A stretch of DNA of 64,000 nucleotides from Candidatus Promineifilum breve (GTDB lineage Bacteria; Chloroflexota; Anaerolineae; Promineifilales; Promineifilaceae). Shown in pieces: positions 15,566 through 60,360 of the stretch (position 1 is the first letter of the stretch; each line of letters starts with the position of its first letter). A program made the translations under genes and the position numbers. Location: positions 248,001 to 312,000 of the forward strand of contig NZ_LN890656.1 of NCBI RefSeq assembly GCF_900066015.1. Direction: 5' to 3'. The notes under the pieces are model-generated. The model was not told the origin of the DNA, ran no database searches, and was given only the letters and a program-made list of their open reading frames with translations.

Positions 15566-15707
15566 CCGATGGGTTTAGGCGATGGGTTCAGGCGATGGGT
15601 TCAGGCGATGGGTTCAGGCGATGGGTTCAGGCGATGGGTTCAGGCGATGGGTTCAGGCGATGGGTTCAGGCGACGGGTCAGCCGATTGGTTCAGCCGATG
15701 GGTTCAA
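15566..15707. repeat. 13-bp tandem repeat array (GCGATGGGTTCAG), about 11 units
   Basis: Near-perfect direct repeats of 13 bp; units at the left and right ends are degenerate (TTTAG, CGACGGGTCAG, CGATTGGTTCAG). Any frame repeats every 39 bp, so an apparent small ORF here encodes a 13-aa periodic peptide. I do not regard it as a gene. Confidence 0.85.
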
Positions 15708-15822
15708 ACCCATCGCTGCTACACAAAACCCGGCTGAAGCCGGTTAAAGAAATCGCGCCTCTCTTCAACCGGCTTTAGCCGGGTTTCGTGTAGCTGCGGC
15801 GGGTTTGAACCCGCCGTGAACC
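15698..15822. repeat. REP-like palindrome cluster
   Basis: Contains GATGGGTTCAAACCCATC, an inverted pair of CCGGCTGAAGCCGG / CCGGCTTTAGCCGG hairpins flanked by CTACACAAAA and TTTCGTGTAG, and GGCGGGTTTGAACCCGCC. The same hairpin types recur at 20931-20992, 35792-36220 and 36770-36990. Confidence 0.85.
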
Positions 15823-20930: not shown

Positions 20931-20992
20931 TCTGCAACCGGCTTCAGCCGGGTTTTGGGTAACAGGCGCGGGTTTGAACCCGCGCTGCCTGT
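20931..20992. repeat. REP-like hairpins beside IS630 copy 2
   Basis: AACCGGCTTCAGCCGGGTT followed by GCGCGGGTTTGAACCCGCGC, the same family as the large cluster at 35792-36990. It ends just before the stop codon of the nucleotidyltransferase gene. Confidence 0.8.
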
Positions 20993-32108: not shown

Positions 32109-32204
32109 TTTGTAGGGCGGGATGGTATCCCGCCCCCGCTACGTAGCGAAGGATGCCTTCCGGCGAAGATGTAAGAGGGCGGGTTGCCAACCCGCCCTAC
32201 AAAA
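32109..32204. repeat. MITE-like element with TTTGTAGGGCGGG ends
   Basis: About 96 bp with inverted ends TTTGTAGGGCGGG / CCCGCCCTACAAA; each end is also an internal hairpin (GGGCGGGATGGTATCCCGCCC-like left, GGGCGGGTTGCCAACCCGCCC-like right). No coding content. Confidence 0.75.
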
Positions 32205-32208
32205 CACC

Positions 32209-33071: not shown

Positions 33072-35771
33072 CTAAGGTCCATCCCCTGTCCGAACAACCA
33101 CCTTCGCCCGCTTCGGCAAAGCCATCGGCAATGTCGTCCGCCTGACCCCATCAAACTGATAGAGCGCGTTGGCCACGGCCGCCGCCGTCGGCACCAGCCC
33201 GATCTCGCCCACCCCCTTGGCGCCATAGGGGCCATACGGGTCGGGCACTTCGATGCCGATGATCTCCATCGGCGGCATCTCCTTGGCCCGCAGGATGCCC
33301 ATTTGCCGCAGGCGGGTGCTCTTCGGCCGCCCGCCCTCCATCGGCATGTCCTCGCTGATGGCGTAGCCCAGCCCCATGTGGAGCGAGCCTTCCAGTTGCC
33401 CCTCGAACAGCGTCGGGTTGTAGATTTTGCCCGCGTCGTGGGCGGCGGTGATCTTGGCGACGCGGCCGTCGTCGTCGAGCGTCACCAGTTGCGTGGCGTA
33501 GCTGTAGGAGTAGTGGGTCACGATCTTGCCGTCTTTCTCGTAGCCCGGCTTGGTCGTCCAATCGACCACCCACGCCCCCTCGTAGACCCGCCCGGCCAGT
33601 TCGGCCAGCGTGTGGCTCTGCAAATCGTCGCGCAGTTTGGCCGCGGCGTTGATGATGGCGTTGCCCACCAGCGACGTGGCCCGGCTGGCGGTGGTCATGC
33701 CCGCTTCCTGGCGCATGGCCGTATCGACGCGCACGCGCACGATGGCCGGGTCGATGCCCGTCTCGTGGCACAACGTCTGCACGGCCACGGTATGCACGCC
33801 CTGGCCCATCTCCGTCCAGCCGTGGTCGACGATGACCCGCTCGGCCGATTCGATGGTGATGCTGACCTGCGAGGCGTCGGGCATGCCGTTGCCGATGCCG
33901 GTGTTCTTGATGCCACAGGCGATGCCGGCGTATTTGGCGGCGTAGAAGGCATCCTTCACGGCCAGCAGCGTCTCGCGCACGCCCGCCCCGCCCTCGATGA
34001 TCTGGCCGGTGGAGGTCACGTCGCCGTTTTGCAGGGCGTTGTCGTAGCGGAACTGCCAACGGTCGAAGCCGGCTTGTTGACATAACTCGTCCAGACAACT
34101 CTCCAGCCCAAAGACGGCCTGATTGACGCCGAAGCCGCGCATGGCCCCGCAGGGGATGTTGTTGGTGTAAGCGGCCAGCGCCTCCACGTCGGCCGCGGGC
34201 ACGTGGTAGGCCCCGGTGGCATGGCCGGCGGCCCGCTCCAGCACCTTCATGCCCACCGAGGCGTAGGCCCCCGTGTCGCCCACGAACTTCACCTTGACAT
34301 AAGTCAATTTGCCGGCCGCGTCGCAGCCGACGGTGTAGTCCATCCAGATCGGGTGGCGCTTGGGGTGGATGATGATCGACTCGGCGCGCGTCAGCGTCAC
34401 CTTCACCGGCCGCCCGGTCAGGTGGGCCATGAGCGCCGCGTGCCCCTGCACCGACAGGTCTTCCTTGCCGCCGAAGCCGCCGCCGTTGGGCACCAGCGTC
34501 ACCCGCACCGCCTCCAGCGGCAGCCCCAGCAGCGCCGCGATCTGGATGCGGTCATCGTAGACGCCCTGGCTTTGAGACAGGACGTGGATAACCTCGTTCG
34601 TAGTCGCCACTTTAGTGGCGTCTTCTCTTGTTTCACCCTCGGCATAGACCTGGCGGAAATCCTGCTCGTCGATAGATGGACGACTAAAGTCGTCACTACG
34701 AACGGCTGTCGGTATCCCAATGGCGCATTCCGGCTCCATATAGCCGTGCTCGATGCGTTGCGTCTGGAAGATGCCGTGGGCCGTGTGGGCGGTGGCGGCG
34801 ACGGCGGCGGCCATGTCGCCGCGAACGAAGGCGGTGCGCGACAGCAGATTGCCGGCCGGGTGGATGGGCGGCGCGTCGGGCAGCAGCGCGGCGTGGGGGT
34901 CGGTCACCGGCGTCAGCACCTCATACTCGACGCGGATCAGTTCGGCCGCGGCGCGGGCGATGGCCTCGGTCTCGGCCACGACGCCGGCCAGCGCGTCGCC
35001 CACGTAGCGCGTCTCTTCGCCGGCGGCCACGTACAGCGGCCAATCCTGGCGGATGAGGCCCACGAAGCGCCGGCCGGGCACGTCGGCCGCGGTCAGCACG
35101 CGGCTGACACCGGGCACGGCCTCGGCCGCGCTGGTGTCGATGCTGAGAACGCGCGCCCGTGGGTGGTCGCTCAATCGCAGCGCCCCGTGCACCATGCCCG
35201 GCAGCGTGATGTCGGCCACGTAGTCATGGCGGCCGAGCACCAGATCTTCGGCGCGGTACTTGGGATGGCGGCCACCGACACGGCCGTCGGCCGCGGGCGG
35301 CAGCACTTCCTCTTCCTTGCGAATGGCCGCCGCGGCGACCTCGATGGCGTCGATGATCTTCTTGTACCCGGTGCAGCGGCACAGGTGGTGGGTCAGCGCC
35401 TGGGCGATGTCGTCGCGCGTCGGCTCGGCGTTCTTGTTGATCAGGCAGTTGGCCGAGATGACCATGCCGGGGATGCAGAAGCCGCACTGCACGCCCCCCT
35501 TGGCGACGAAGGCGTTGGCGAAGACGCTCTGGCGGTAGTCGCCCAAGCCCTCGATGGTCGTGACCCGGCCGCCGGCGACCTTCTTCATGGGCGTGACGCA
35601 GGCCAGCGTCGATTTGCCGTTCACGTCCACGGCGCAGCAGCCGCAGGCCGCCTGAGGCGCGCAGCCGTCCTTAGGGGAGGTAATGCCCTCGTTCAGCCGT
35701 AGATAGCTCAGCAAGGGCAACTCCGGGTCGCCGTCGTAGTGTCGCGTTTCGCCGTTTAGTTGGAAATCCAT
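33072..35771 (-). CDS. Fused 2Fe-2S / molybdopterin hydroxylase (xanthine dehydrogenase family)
   Basis: 899 aa, close to the Desulfovibrio aldehyde oxidoreductase layout: plant-type 2Fe-2S domain (CAPQAACGCC near 37-46), second helical 2Fe-2S domain (CGFCIPGM near 96 and CRCTGY near 131), then the molybdopterin-binding large domain (about 175-890) with GGGFGGKEDLSVQ, AMRGFGVNQAVFGLE, TEMGQGVHTVAVQ and the terminal GVGEIGL, which holds the catalytic Glu. It hydroxylates aldehydes or purine-like substrates. No FAD subunit is adjacent. Residues about 355-393 (TAVRSDDFSRPSIDEQDF and following) have no counterpart expected in the family and are written by a palindromic repeat inserted in frame. 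Function may persist if the insert loops out. Confidence 0.9.
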   Translation of the reverse strand: MDFQLNGETRHYDGDPELPLLSYLRLNEGITSPKDGCAPQAACGCCAVDVNGKSTLACVTPMKKVAGGRVTTIEGLGDYRQSVFANAFVAKGGVQCGFCIPGMVISANCLINKNAEPTRDDIAQALTHHLCRCTGYKKIIDAIEVAAAAIRKEEEVLPPAADGRVGGRHPKYRAEDLVLGRHDYVADITLPGMVHGALRLSDHPRARVLSIDTSAAEAVPGVSRVLTAADVPGRRFVGLIRQDWPLYVAAGEETRYVGDALAGVVAETEAIARAAAELIRVEYEVLTPVTDPHAALLPDAPPIHPAGNLLSRTAFVRGDMAAAVAATAHTAHGIFQTQRIEHGYMEPECAIGIPTAVRSDDFSRPSIDEQDFRQVYAEGETREDATKVATTNEVIHVLSQSQGVYDDRIQIAALLGLPLEAVRVTLVPNGGGFGGKEDLSVQGHAALMAHLTGRPVKVTLTRAESIIIHPKRHPIWMDYTVGCDAAGKLTYVKVKFVGDTGAYASVGMKVLERAAGHATGAYHVPAADVEALAAYTNNIPCGAMRGFGVNQAVFGLESCLDELCQQAGFDRWQFRYDNALQNGDVTSTGQIIEGGAGVRETLLAVKDAFYAAKYAGIACGIKNTGIGNGMPDASQVSITIESAERVIVDHGWTEMGQGVHTVAVQTLCHETGIDPAIVRVRVDTAMRQEAGMTTASRATSLVGNAIINAAAKLRDDLQSHTLAELAGRVYEGAWVVDWTTKPGYEKDGKIVTHYSYSYATQLVTLDDDGRVAKITAAHDAGKIYNPTLFEGQLEGSLHMGLGYAISEDMPMEGGRPKSTRLRQMGILRAKEMPPMEIIGIEVPDPYGPYGAKGVGEIGLVPTAAAVANALYQFDGVRRTTLPMALPKRAKVVVRTGDGP
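34593..34709. repeat. Palindromic MITE-like insertion inside the molybdopterin hydroxylase gene
   Basis: Inverted ends CGTTCGTAGT at 34595-34604 and ACTACGAACG at 34695-34704, with inner palindromes CGCCACTTTAGTGGCG and CGACTAAAGTCG. The block is read through in frame as about 39 extra residues. Confidence 0.8.
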
Positions 35772-35791
35772 GGTTTATCCCGACTCCTTCT

Positions 35792-36220
35792 GTGGGATAA
35801 ATCCCACAGCTGTTATCCGAAACCGGCTGAAGCCGGTTTTGCTTATCAGCGGCGGGTTTGAACCCGCCTGGCGTTCGTTCACCCCGACCGTGGGATGAAT
35901 CCCACGTCTGTTATCCGAAACCGGCTGAAGCCGGTTTTGCTTATCAGCGGCGGGTTTGAACCCGCCTGGCGTTCGTTCACCCCGACCGTGGGATGAATCC
36001 CACAGCTGTTACCCGAAACCGGCTTCAGCCGGTTGGCGCTATGCCGTGGGATAAATCCCACGTCTGTTACCCAAAACCTACTTCAGCCGGTTGGCGCTTT
36101 GCCGTGGGATAAATCCCACGTCTGTTACCCGAAACCGGCTGAAGCCGGTTGGCGCGAATCCACCTCTTTAACCGGCTTCAGCCGGTTTTGCTTATCAGCG
36201 GCGGGTTTGAACCCGCTTGG
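35792..36220. repeat. Large REP-like array (98-bp and 58-bp periods)
   Basis: Composite units of three hairpins: GTGGGATGAATCCCAC, AACCGGCTGAAGCCGGTT and GGCGGGTTTGAACCCGCC. Starts at 35792, 35890 and 35988 give a 98-bp period, then 36046 and 36104 a 58-bp period without the third hairpin. It fills the gap between the hydroxylase start and the transposase stop. Confidence 0.92.
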
Positions 36221-36225
36221 CTTTA

Positions 36226-36729
36226 TTAGAACGGCAATTCATCGAAGGCCTGATACACAGCTCGTTCTTCGCGAATTTGGCGGAATGGGGACGGCGATGT
36301 CGCCTCGTCTTGTTCTTCATCCTCGTCTACCCTCTCCAGCCAGCTATTTGTTGAGTTCAATTGATGGTGTTGCTTTTGGTTTTCGACGTAGGCCACCGCT
36401 TGAGCGCATTGGCTCTCTCCTAATGAGAGGTAACCATAGCCACGCTGCCATGCAAATGGCTCCGGCCTGGGCGTCAATTCATGGTTGACGAAATGGGAAC
36501 TGCTCCCCTTCATGTTTTTCACGACGTCAGACACGCTCAGCTTCGGCGGAATCGAGATAACCACATGCACATGGTCGGCCATACCGTTGACTGCATGGAC
36601 ATAGCAACCCATTTCAGCCGCCCTGGATACCAGACAGGCATAGAGAGCACCTTCGATTTGGGGCCGGATAAGCGGCCGGCGATTTTTGGTTGTCCATACC
36701 AGATGTGCAAAACTGCGCCAAAACGGCAT
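36226..36729 (-). CDS. REP-associated tyrosine transposase (RayT / IS200-like Y1)
   Basis: 167 aa. The HUH motif is DHVHVVISIP (His53, His55); the catalytic Tyr lies in QRGYGYLSLGES (about 98-100), followed by VAYVENQKQHH, all as in Y1 transposases of the IS200/RAYT type. Such enzymes cut and rejoin single-stranded hairpin DNA. There is no accompanying TnpB, and the gene is flanked on both sides by the densest REP-like hairpin clusters of the window, the usual genomic setting of RAYT genes. GGGAGG lies 6 nt before the ATG. The C-terminal 45 residues are acidic and less conserved. The stop codon touches a repeat. Confidence 0.9.
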   Translation of the reverse strand: MPFWRSFAHLVWTTKNRRPLIRPQIEGALYACLVSRAAEMGCYVHAVNGMADHVHVVISIPPKLSVSDVVKNMKGSSSHFVNHELTPRPEPFAWQRGYGYLSLGESQCAQAVAYVENQKQHHQLNSTNSWLERVDEDEEQDEATSPSPFRQIREERAVYQAFDELPF

Positions 36730-36769
36730 GATGTGCCTCCCAATTTCCTGTGGGATATATTCTTATGCC

Positions 36770-36990
36770 GTGGGATGAATCCCACGTCTGTTACTATGCC
36801 GTGGTGTGAATCCCACGTCTGTTACGATGCCGTGGGATGAATCCCACGTCTGTTATCCGAAACCGGCTGAAGCCGGTTGGCGCCGCTCTCCGTAACCTGA
36901 TTTATCAGGTTTTGGGTAGCAGCGGCGGATTTGAATCCGCCTCTATTGCGCGGCGGATTTGAATCCGCCCTCATTTTTGCGGCGGATTTG
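36770..36990. repeat. REP-like array upstream of the transposase gene
   Basis: Three GTGGGATGAATCCCAC-type hairpins (one with GTGGTGTGAATCCCAC), one AACCGGCTGAAGCCGGTT, AACCTGATTTATCAGGTT, and three GGCGGATTTGAATCCGCC types. The last unit reaches into the 3' end of the next gene and writes its last residues. Confidence 0.9.
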
Positions 36991-37693
36991 AATACGCCAC
37001 CACATGCGGCGGGTCACCGCCCGCTGCCCGCCAAGCGAAAACCGTCAACAACACCAACATCACCCCCACCCCCAACGCCATCAATTCATGCGGCAACCCG
37101 CGAGCCACCAGAGCCAACACCGCCAGCACCGCCGGCAACACCACCACGGGCGCCACCCACCGCCACCGGCCGGGCAAGCCGCGAAAATAGACGGCGATGA
37201 GCAGGCCATAGAGCGCCAGCCCGCCCCACTTGAGCCAGGTATAAAAGCGCAGGCGGCCGAGCAGCGGCGACAGTTGGCCCAGGATCGGCGCGATCTCCCC
37301 GTCGCCCAGCAGACGGGTGATGCCCAGCAATTGCACGTTCTCAAGCGCGTCGGCGGCCAGGATGACCAGCGCCAGGGCGGCGGGGATATAGAAGAAGCGC
37401 CGCCCGCTGTGGCGCGCCGCGGCCAGGGCGAACACGCCCAGGAAGGCGTTGTAGAGGGCCATATATAGGAAGTCCCAACGGTTGACGCGATCCATCGCCG
37501 CGGCCGAACCTTCGGGACGAAACAGCGTTTGAACCTCGGCCGGAGTCTCGGCGAACTCGAAAGCCATGACCGGCGTGATGAAGCCGGGCGGCAGCGGCCC
37601 GATTTGGCGTGGGCCGATGAGCGCCAGGACGAGCGTCATGGCGATAGTTCCCAGACCCAGGATGCCGGCGATGAGAAAGAACCGGTCGCGCAT
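36971..37693 (-). CDS. Multi-pass membrane protein of unknown function
   Basis: 240 aa from ATG 37693 (a TTG is directly upstream). Six hydrophobic helices, the first at residues 7-25, others about 82-99, 105-123, 158-172, 180-200 and 205-222. The extracytoplasmic loop between helices 1 and 2 contains GFITPVMAFEFAETPAEVQTLF, a conserved-looking amphipathic segment. I do not recognise a named family. The last 14 residues (DPPHVVAYSNPPQK) are encoded by REP-like repeat DNA, so the original stop was probably lost or displaced by repeat insertion. Confidence 0.75.
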   Translation of the reverse strand: MRDRFFLIAGILGLGTIAMTLVLALIGPRQIGPLPPGFITPVMAFEFAETPAEVQTLFRPEGSAAAMDRVNRWDFLYMALYNAFLGVFALAAARHSGRRFFYIPAALALVILAADALENVQLLGITRLLGDGEIAPILGQLSPLLGRLRFYTWLKWGGLALYGLLIAVYFRGLPGRWRWVAPVVVLPAVLAVLALVARGLPHELMALGVGVMLVLLTVFAWRAAGGDPPHVVAYSNPPQK

Positions 37694-58185: not shown

Positions 58186-58476
58186 GACGCGGTGTAGGCG
58201 GAACTTCCAGTTCCGCGCTGGGGGTGGAGCTGGAAGCTCCACCTACGGGTTGATTGCCTGGTTAGCGTTGTTCCACGGTGGACGCGGCGTAGGCGGAACT
58301 TCCAGTTCCGCGTTGGGGGTGGAGCTGGAAGCTCCACCTACGGGTTGATTGCCTGGTTAGCGTTGTTCCACGGTGGACGCGGCGTAGGCGGAACTTCCAG
58401 TTCCGCGTTGGGGGTGGAGCTGGAAGCTCCACCTACGGGTTGATTGACTGGTTAGCGTTGTTCCACGGTGGACGCG
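58186..58476. repeat. 95-bp tandem repeats containing the 3' end of the downstream gene
   Basis: GGTTAGCGTTGTTCCACGG starts at 58260, 58355 and 58450, exact 95-bp period, with a partial left copy. Each unit holds GGCGGAACTTCCAGTTCCGC and GGAGCTGGAAGCTCC hairpins. The block carries the last 9 codons and stop of the GIN-domain gene three times. Confidence 0.85.
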
Positions 58477-59872: not shown

Positions 59873-60360
59873 GGGGGTGGCGGGTGGCGAGTGGCGGGTG
59901 GCGCGTGGCGGGTAGCGGGTGGCGTGTGCCGCGTGCCGACCGGCGAGGGCTGAGGGCCGACCGCCGGTGAGCGCGGTAGGTTGAGGCGATTTGACGAAAT
60001 AATTCGGACATCCCGACAACGCCGCCCCGGGCTAAAGCCGCGGGGCTAGTGAACAACGGCCCGTGAACGGGCCTGAAGCGTCGCGCGCCGCCTCTTAAGC
60101 CGGCCTCGGCCGGCGCCGTGGGCCTTTAGGCTCGGGCGGCCCGGTGGAACGCACCATCCCCGGAACAAATAATCAAAACGCAACAGCCGGTTCTCGTGTG
60201 TCGGCAGCGACTCTGCGCCACCCGCCACCCGCCACCCGCCACTCACCACCCGCCTTGCCCCTTTCTCCCCTGCTCCCCAATCCCCCCTGCTCCCCCGCCT
60301 CCCCATGACATTCATCACCAAAATGACATGACAAACGTCACTTGAGACACTGAGTAATTT
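59873..60360. repeat. Repeat-rich intergenic region before the giant beta-helix gene
   Basis: GTGGCGG heptamers (59876-59937) and the opposite CCACCCG heptamers (60213-60256) are inverted. Between them are GCCCCGGGCTAAAGCCGCGGGGC and CCGGCCTCGGCCGG-type palindromes (60025-60142). At 60322-60346 the strand-reversed copy of the 59401 motif occurs. No gene is visible. Confidence 0.7.

Follow-up and report, generated by a model that had tools for sequence, protein, structure and literature searches.

We examined which kind of system is formed by a Y1 transposase gene and the dense hairpins around it in Candidatus Promineifilum breve, and if this locus was the source of related hairpins elsewhere in the genome. 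The window, i.e., the whole stretch of DNA analysed, covers 64,000 nucleotides (C2:248001-312000; contig NZ_LN890656.1). The initial annotation, made from the letters alone, had described a RAYT-like transposase inside its probable REP array, taken to be the source of the hairpin family. Our results support, with good confidence, an amended reading: the system is RAYT-like, but its enzyme is an IS200-related Y1 transposase of subclass 1.2 and not a canonical RAYT.

The transposase gene was surrounded by 22 hairpins, 19 of them perfect palindromes: 13 perfect (stem of at least 7) and one imperfect hairpin in the left array (35790-36216), and six perfect and two imperfect in the right array (36769-36998). 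All 19 perfect ones have a TNAA apex and lie within 1.23 kb (35780-37010); 1000 first-order Markov shuffles gave on average 0.012 such palindromes and never more than 2. Both periods noticed earlier were exact, 98 bp at 35792/35890/35988 and 58 bp at 35988/36046/36104, and these tandem arrays point to local duplication of hairpins. The dispersed copies previously placed near 15698 and 20931 were likewise found, as a complete element and a single unit, respectively; a fifth stem, AACCTGAT-TT-ATCAGGTT at 36894, had been missed. Coordinates are collected in the table.

Features of the transposase locus and of dispersed copies in the window (H1 and H2, the two hairpins of a unit; R1, covariance model of the unit)
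Feature	Coordinates	Strand	Basis
Y1/HUH transposase, TnpA-Y1 of subclass 1.2 type by motifs, 167 aa	36226-36729	-	DHVH, FAWQ, YVENQKQHH
First 98-bp repeat: + unit 35790-35839 (H1 GTGGGAT and H2 AACCGGCT), its H2 common to - unit 35820-35869 (H1 GGCGGGT)	35790-35869	.	R1, 67.5 and 58.9 bits
Second 98-bp repeat: + unit 35888-35937 overlapping - unit 35918-35967	35888-35967	.	R1, 69.6 and 58.9 bits
58-bp repeats: units 35986-36035 and 36044-36093 (H2 of the second damaged: AACCTACTTCAGCCGGTT)	35986-36093	+	R1, 54.7 and 45.1 bits
Convergent REPIN-like element directly 3' of the gene: 36102-36151 (+) and 36169-36218 (-), spacer 17 nt	36102-36218	.	R1, 70.0 and 66.9 bits; pair analysis
Solitary GTGGGAT-type H1 hairpins upstream of the gene: 36769 perfect, 36801 imperfect	36768-36817	+	Palindromes; weak R1 match at 36768-36798, 30 bits
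Convergent REPIN-like element 5' of the gene: 36830-36879 (+) and 36893-36942 (-), spacer 13 nt	36830-36942	.	R1, 70.2 and 63.2 bits
Two more H1-type hairpins GGCGGATTTGAATCCGCC, the second imperfect	36952-36998	-	
Dispersed complete REPIN-like element, H1-H2-spacer-H2'-H1', 121 bp	15696-15816	.	R1, pair analysis
Dispersed single two-hairpin unit	20935-20985	-	R1, 56.9 bits

The architecture of the hairpins was observed directly. Among palindromes with a 2-nt loop in 864 kb of the genome, the apex rule X-T-N-A-A-X' dominated (TTCAAA 25, CTGAAG 18, TTGAAA 13, ATGAAT 11 and ATAAAT 7), and shuffled sequence had none of these five among its most frequent apices. The hairpins occur in ordered pairs (H1, CTGNYACACRAA, H2, GAAGAGG), and in almost every unit 30 or 31 nt separate the apices of H1 and H2. 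The TTNA strand of the dispersed copies reads 5'-CCTCTTC-H2-TTYGTGTRYCAG-H1-3'; gene-adjacent copies have other linkers, ending in CAG. Thirty-one units, drawn from this genome and from relatives whose enzymes are 38-71% identical, aligned without gaps; 97.6% of the pair cells were paired, and two-sided changes were found at 13 of 16 pairs (109 cells in the 31 units), a level equalled in 0 of 500 shuffles. Both apices (TTNA on one strand) and the AG/CT beside H1 were invariant across the alignment, the apex being in part a selection criterion there, so that its unbiased support comes from the 864-kb census and from the flank counts given below. Because of this alignment we dropped the reading of the four stem types as four REP families: they are two positional classes of one unit (H2, linker, H1), and what had been taken for an unusually complex set amounts to a single unit whose stems are interchangeable. 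No match to the hairpins was obtained in an Rfam scan.

The two sides of a unit are distinguishable. On the complement strand the apex is TTNA and the two bases at the foot of H1 are AG (5'-..NCAG-H1). The ratio of hairpins with YAG at the 5' foot on the TTNA strand only to those with it on the other strand only was 51:5 in this genome, 17:3 in relatives, and 31:1 in Bacteroidota, where the pattern had been noticed by eye just before counting. H2 has no conserved AG foot. The foot of H1 is NCAG in this genome and ATAG, TTAG or ACAG at many Bacteroidota loci, AG alone being common to both.

A genome-wide census of units was made with model R1, which reported 101 units in 694 kb and at least 106 units in the whole genome; R1 was built partly from units of this genome, so these matches are not independent evidence. 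Dispersal itself was plainly seen. Unit pairs were convergent in 29 cases versus divergent in five, with most spacers of 12-22 nt, and the 29 convergent elements were mostly 113-126 bp long (range about 105-126 bp, with two longer). The left and right halves of many elements carry different stems, and therefore stems have been exchanged as modules. For 11 elements with unrelated flanks, likeness stopped at the outer H1 feet; the 114-bp class had near-copies on both large contigs, and eight of its left halves were near-identical. Presence or absence at orthologous sites was also observed directly: an element at C1:2196330, lying in frame within murE (639-aa ORF, TIGR01085 396 bits; L136 553-2469), was missing from the orthologous site in four congeners, and one at C1:3905703 was missing in three. 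The murE insertion consists of a REPIN and a GTAG-type palindrome and adds several dozen residues; since the palindrome was gained at the same place, the two gains are inseparable. Both marks of a REPIN, a convergent REP pair as the dispersed unit and presence or absence at orthologous sites (here two loci), were observed. Two-hairpin loci numbered 31 on the 1.0-Mb contig C2 vs 12 on the 4.0-Mb contig C1, and the unrelated REP family of the genome's RAYT was likewise denser on C2 (13 vs 12); the difference between the families was not significant (p=0.12), and hence we make no claim of replicon bias.

The part of the initial annotation that made the array the source locus was not supported. 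The GTGGGAT hairpin has seven of its eight occurrences inside the array, the main H1 of the array differs from that of the dispersed majority, and the linker TTYGTGTNNCAG of that majority (49 matches vs four for a reversed-pattern control) is absent from the array. The array and its enzyme copy are therefore a doubtful source for the dispersed copies, and the array is more plausibly a subfamily that has expanded locally.

We examined if such hairpins recur beside related enzymes, choosing the loci by protein only and counting palindromes without R1 in the near flank (within 400 nt of the gene) and the far flank (beyond 700 nt). At 27 loci, mostly of the Promineifilum order, TNAA palindromes numbered 71 near vs 2 far (3.73/kb vs 0.054/kb, 69-fold); at 33 Bacteroidota loci they numbered 67 vs 6 (2.68/kb vs 0.107/kb, 25-fold). 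The association of enzyme and hairpin was thus directly observed in two phyla. Thirteen control Y1 loci, of canonical IS200 type plus one RAYT (L003), had no TNAA hairpins in 9.6 kb of near flank. Hairpins were absent beside the W-A enzyme variants L002, L061 and L062, and one Bacteroidota subclade had hairpins with a different apex and loops of 3-5 nt. On the enzyme tree the TNAA apex label clustered, with 7 changes vs 17.4 for shuffled labels. A scan of genome contigs gave only three relatives, the named ones being Anaerolineae MAGs. Plasmid tblastn searches for Cyanobacteria gave no clear subclass 1.2 member; matches in Kovacikia and Leptolyngbya were without Y---Q--HH. One Bacteroidota subclass 1.2 gene (L105 1272-2500), well suited to biochemical study, lies within an extended and highly regular array in which hairpin units alternate.

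Among 55 genomes of the order, R1 matches were present in 47 and a subclass 1.2 gene was detected in 19. Hairpin density was 4.3/Mb in genomes with the enzyme vs 1.6/Mb in those without (Mann-Whitney p=0.0025, kinship ignored and many of the genomes being drafts), and the contrast was kept in genomes at least 90% complete (p=0.006, kinship again ignored). Equal abundance in genomes lacking the gene, named at the outset as grounds for rejecting a link, was thus not what was found: without the enzyme, hairpins are rarer but not absent. Several drafts without a detected enzyme had many units, up to at least 109, and since many enzyme-negative genomes keep hairpins, there is no strict dependence upon the enzyme. 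A gene flanked by repeats may, however, be lost from draft assemblies.

This persistence, and the unlikeness of the dispersed copies to the array, would suit a view in which the hairpins were moved by another enzyme (e.g., the RAYT of this genome) or are old relics, with the Y1 gene merely lying among them. We consider this unlikely, given that flank enrichment was found at independent subclass 1.2 genes of two phyla, that the RAYT locus is without TNAA hairpins, and that apex type tracks the enzyme tree.

The protein clearly falls within the HUH/Y1 fold family as judged from its sequence: the 167-aa ORF matched Pfam PF01797 (Y1_Tnp) with 98 bits, and the TnpA proteins of ISDra2 and IS608 are the nearest solved structures. 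As first noted, the gene has no tnpB beside it; its neighbours encode a molybdopterin oxidoreductase, the alpha chain of DNA polymerase III, and a protein that matched no Pfam family. The enzyme carries the motif set of subclass 1.2 (Y---Q--HH, W-Q and DH[IV]H), its tyrosine motif being YVENQKQHH and not the Y---NP of class 2, and Y114, Q118, H121, H122 and W94 were invariant in an alignment of 21 members from the Promineifilum order and named relatives. As to a subclass-specific C-terminal domain, a tail of about 50 aa, variable in length, was seen in close relatives. The motifs thus assign the enzyme to subclass 1.2 of TnpA-Y1 and not to the canonical RAYTs.

Could it instead be an ordinary subclass 1.1 insertion sequence of IS200 type with duplicated subterminal hairpins? 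The enzyme does pass the NCBIfam IS200 equivalog cut-off (NF033573, 85.5 bits; cut-off 55), and its closeness to ISDra2 and IS608 agrees with such a view. The genome (5.03 Mb, three contigs), however, holds only three Y1 genes, namely this one, L002 and L003, and the sole other homologue of the subclass, L002, is a diverged W-A variant without hairpins; one copy and one diverged relative in 5.03 Mb is a low copy number, and neither near-identical gene copies nor a tnpB partner, as would mark IS200/IS605, were found in this genome. Nine canonical IS200 proteins formed a clade of their own (100/99) in a tree of 64 proteins, in which the root and some deep forks were without support and the true RAYT lay far off. 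With hairpins of the TNAA type at 0 of the 13 control loci and about 100 gene-free hairpin units dispersed through the genome, we regard an IS200-type element as quite unlikely.

That the gene is a canonical RAYT (TnpA-REP, class 2) accompanied by an ordinary REP family is very improbable. The resemblance that led to the earlier RAYT-like description is real, in that REP-like hairpins are dispersed, flank the gene in convergent pairs, and likewise flank the enzymes of relatives, while gene copy number is low. The class 2 assignment itself is refuted by sequence: the REP_Tyr_transpos profile (NF047646) gave 29.1 bits against a cut-off of 80, the class 2 tetranucleotide GT[AG]G is not at the hairpin foot, where YAG is found, and each REP has two hairpins with apices about 30 nt apart instead of one. 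The genome also has a separate, bona fide RAYT (L003 at C1:556427, 81.6 bits), which is flanked by GTAG-tagged single hairpins and by none of the two-hairpin type. Equally improbable is that the hairpins are mainly transcription terminators or mRNA stabilisers spread by recombination only. Their stability, mostly perfect stems, intergenic position and local tandem duplication would agree with such a view, but they lack T-runs after them and any Rfam match, and the elements occupy single sites with unrelated flanks, one in frame inside murE.

We infer that the 167-aa enzyme of this RAYT-like system cleaves and mobilises the units. The TnpA-REP of Marinomonas needs loop bases T12, T13 and A15 but leaves N14 free; it selects strongly for the final two bases of GTAG in REPMb, and A3G4 choose the cut between C and T (Corneloup et al., PMC8266576). 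The TTNA apex and YAG foot found here match these determinants, and the strand counts given above support this orientation; the TTNA strand would thus be the substrate, with the cut likely between C and T within CCTCTTC. Alternatively, the enzyme may read the TNAA strand, with the CT beside H1 itself as the cut. The substrate would be a unit of two hairpins, and two facing units would make up a non-autonomous element (REPIN) of about 114-126 bp. The hairpins would fold once element DNA becomes single-stranded; the enzyme would be guided by the TTNA apex, together with the YAG at the H1 foot, and not by the stem sequence, and crosswise pairing of the foot AG with a C|T dinucleotide would choose the cut. 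The catalytic tyrosine, Y114, would then form a 5'-phosphotyrosine link and the strand would be joined elsewhere, so that the element could spread while the gene remains single-copy.

The proposed system shares with RAYT/REPIN systems (TnpA-REP groups 2 and 3; Marinomonas REPtron Mb, PMC8266576) a single-copy Y1 enzyme among hairpins, convergent pairs and dispersed elements, and with REPMb the TTNA apex and foot AG as the same determinants (PMC8266576); it differs in the subclass 1.2 motif Y---Q--HH instead of the class 2 Y---NP, in two same-strand hairpins 30 nt apart, in an NYAG foot vs GTAG, and in stems that are free to vary. By sequence it resembles IS200/IS605 (IS608, ISDra2) in its HUH/Y1 enzyme and in hairpin recognition via a loop T with a guide beside the foot, but its gene lacks a tnpB partner, is not bounded by element ends, and is not multiplied. 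Subclass 1.2 was described as close to IS200 and of low copy number, and was tabulated without REPs, mostly from Cyanobacteria and Bacteroidetes (Quentin et al. 2018, PMC6006769). Our enzyme agrees with that entry in Y---Q--HH, W-Q, DHVH, short core, low copy number and occurrence also in Bacteroidetes, whereas most members that we examined, including those of a Chloroflexota order, are flanked by REP-like hairpins. The published REP search required GT[AG]G beside the stem (PMC6006769), and so NYAG feet would be missed. We found no report of an association of subclass 1.2 enzymes with hairpins in the open-access papers searched.

A probable substrate can thus be given for an enzyme subclass recorded as having none, with the same code, TTNA at the apex and YAG at the foot, in a lineage apart from the known RAYTs; how hairpin transposases choose and tolerate repeats becomes testable by comparison, and surveys tied to GTAG may overlook a large set of REP systems. 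It is possible, although we would stop short of calling it probable, that subclass 1.2 enzymes, widespread in Bacteroidota and Chloroflexota, represent a second type of REP system, independently evolved or ancestral. Its enzymes would recognise a two-hairpin unit solely through apex and foot, so that stems drift or are swapped as modules while the apex geometry of about 30 nt is kept, perhaps by one dimer holding both hairpins.

Other REP-like families were seen in the window. A GTAG-tagged REPIN (CGTAGT-CGCCACTTTAGTGGCG ... GACGACTAAAGTCGTC-ACTACG) lies at 34596-34706 inside the molybdopterin oxidoreductase ORF (33072-35771), whose frame is intact. Three 95-bp repeats of the GTAG-tagged family GGTGGARCTGGAAGYTCCACC, which also flanks the RAYT at C1:556427 and has 46 exact copies genome-wide, occupy 58190-58440. 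At 32110-32205 there are GTAG-tagged palindromes (GTAGGGCGGGATGGTATCCCGCCC and related ones) similar to double-foot REPs, with another copy adjoining the murE insertion; counted with the other hairpin families, these bring the REP-like families of the genome to at least four. A two-hairpin unit of another subfamily (GGCCCGTGAACGGGCC / GCCGGCCTCGGCCGGC) was found at 60025-60120 and also at L016 and L017, and the same hairpins flank the subclass 1.2 gene of a congener (L057).
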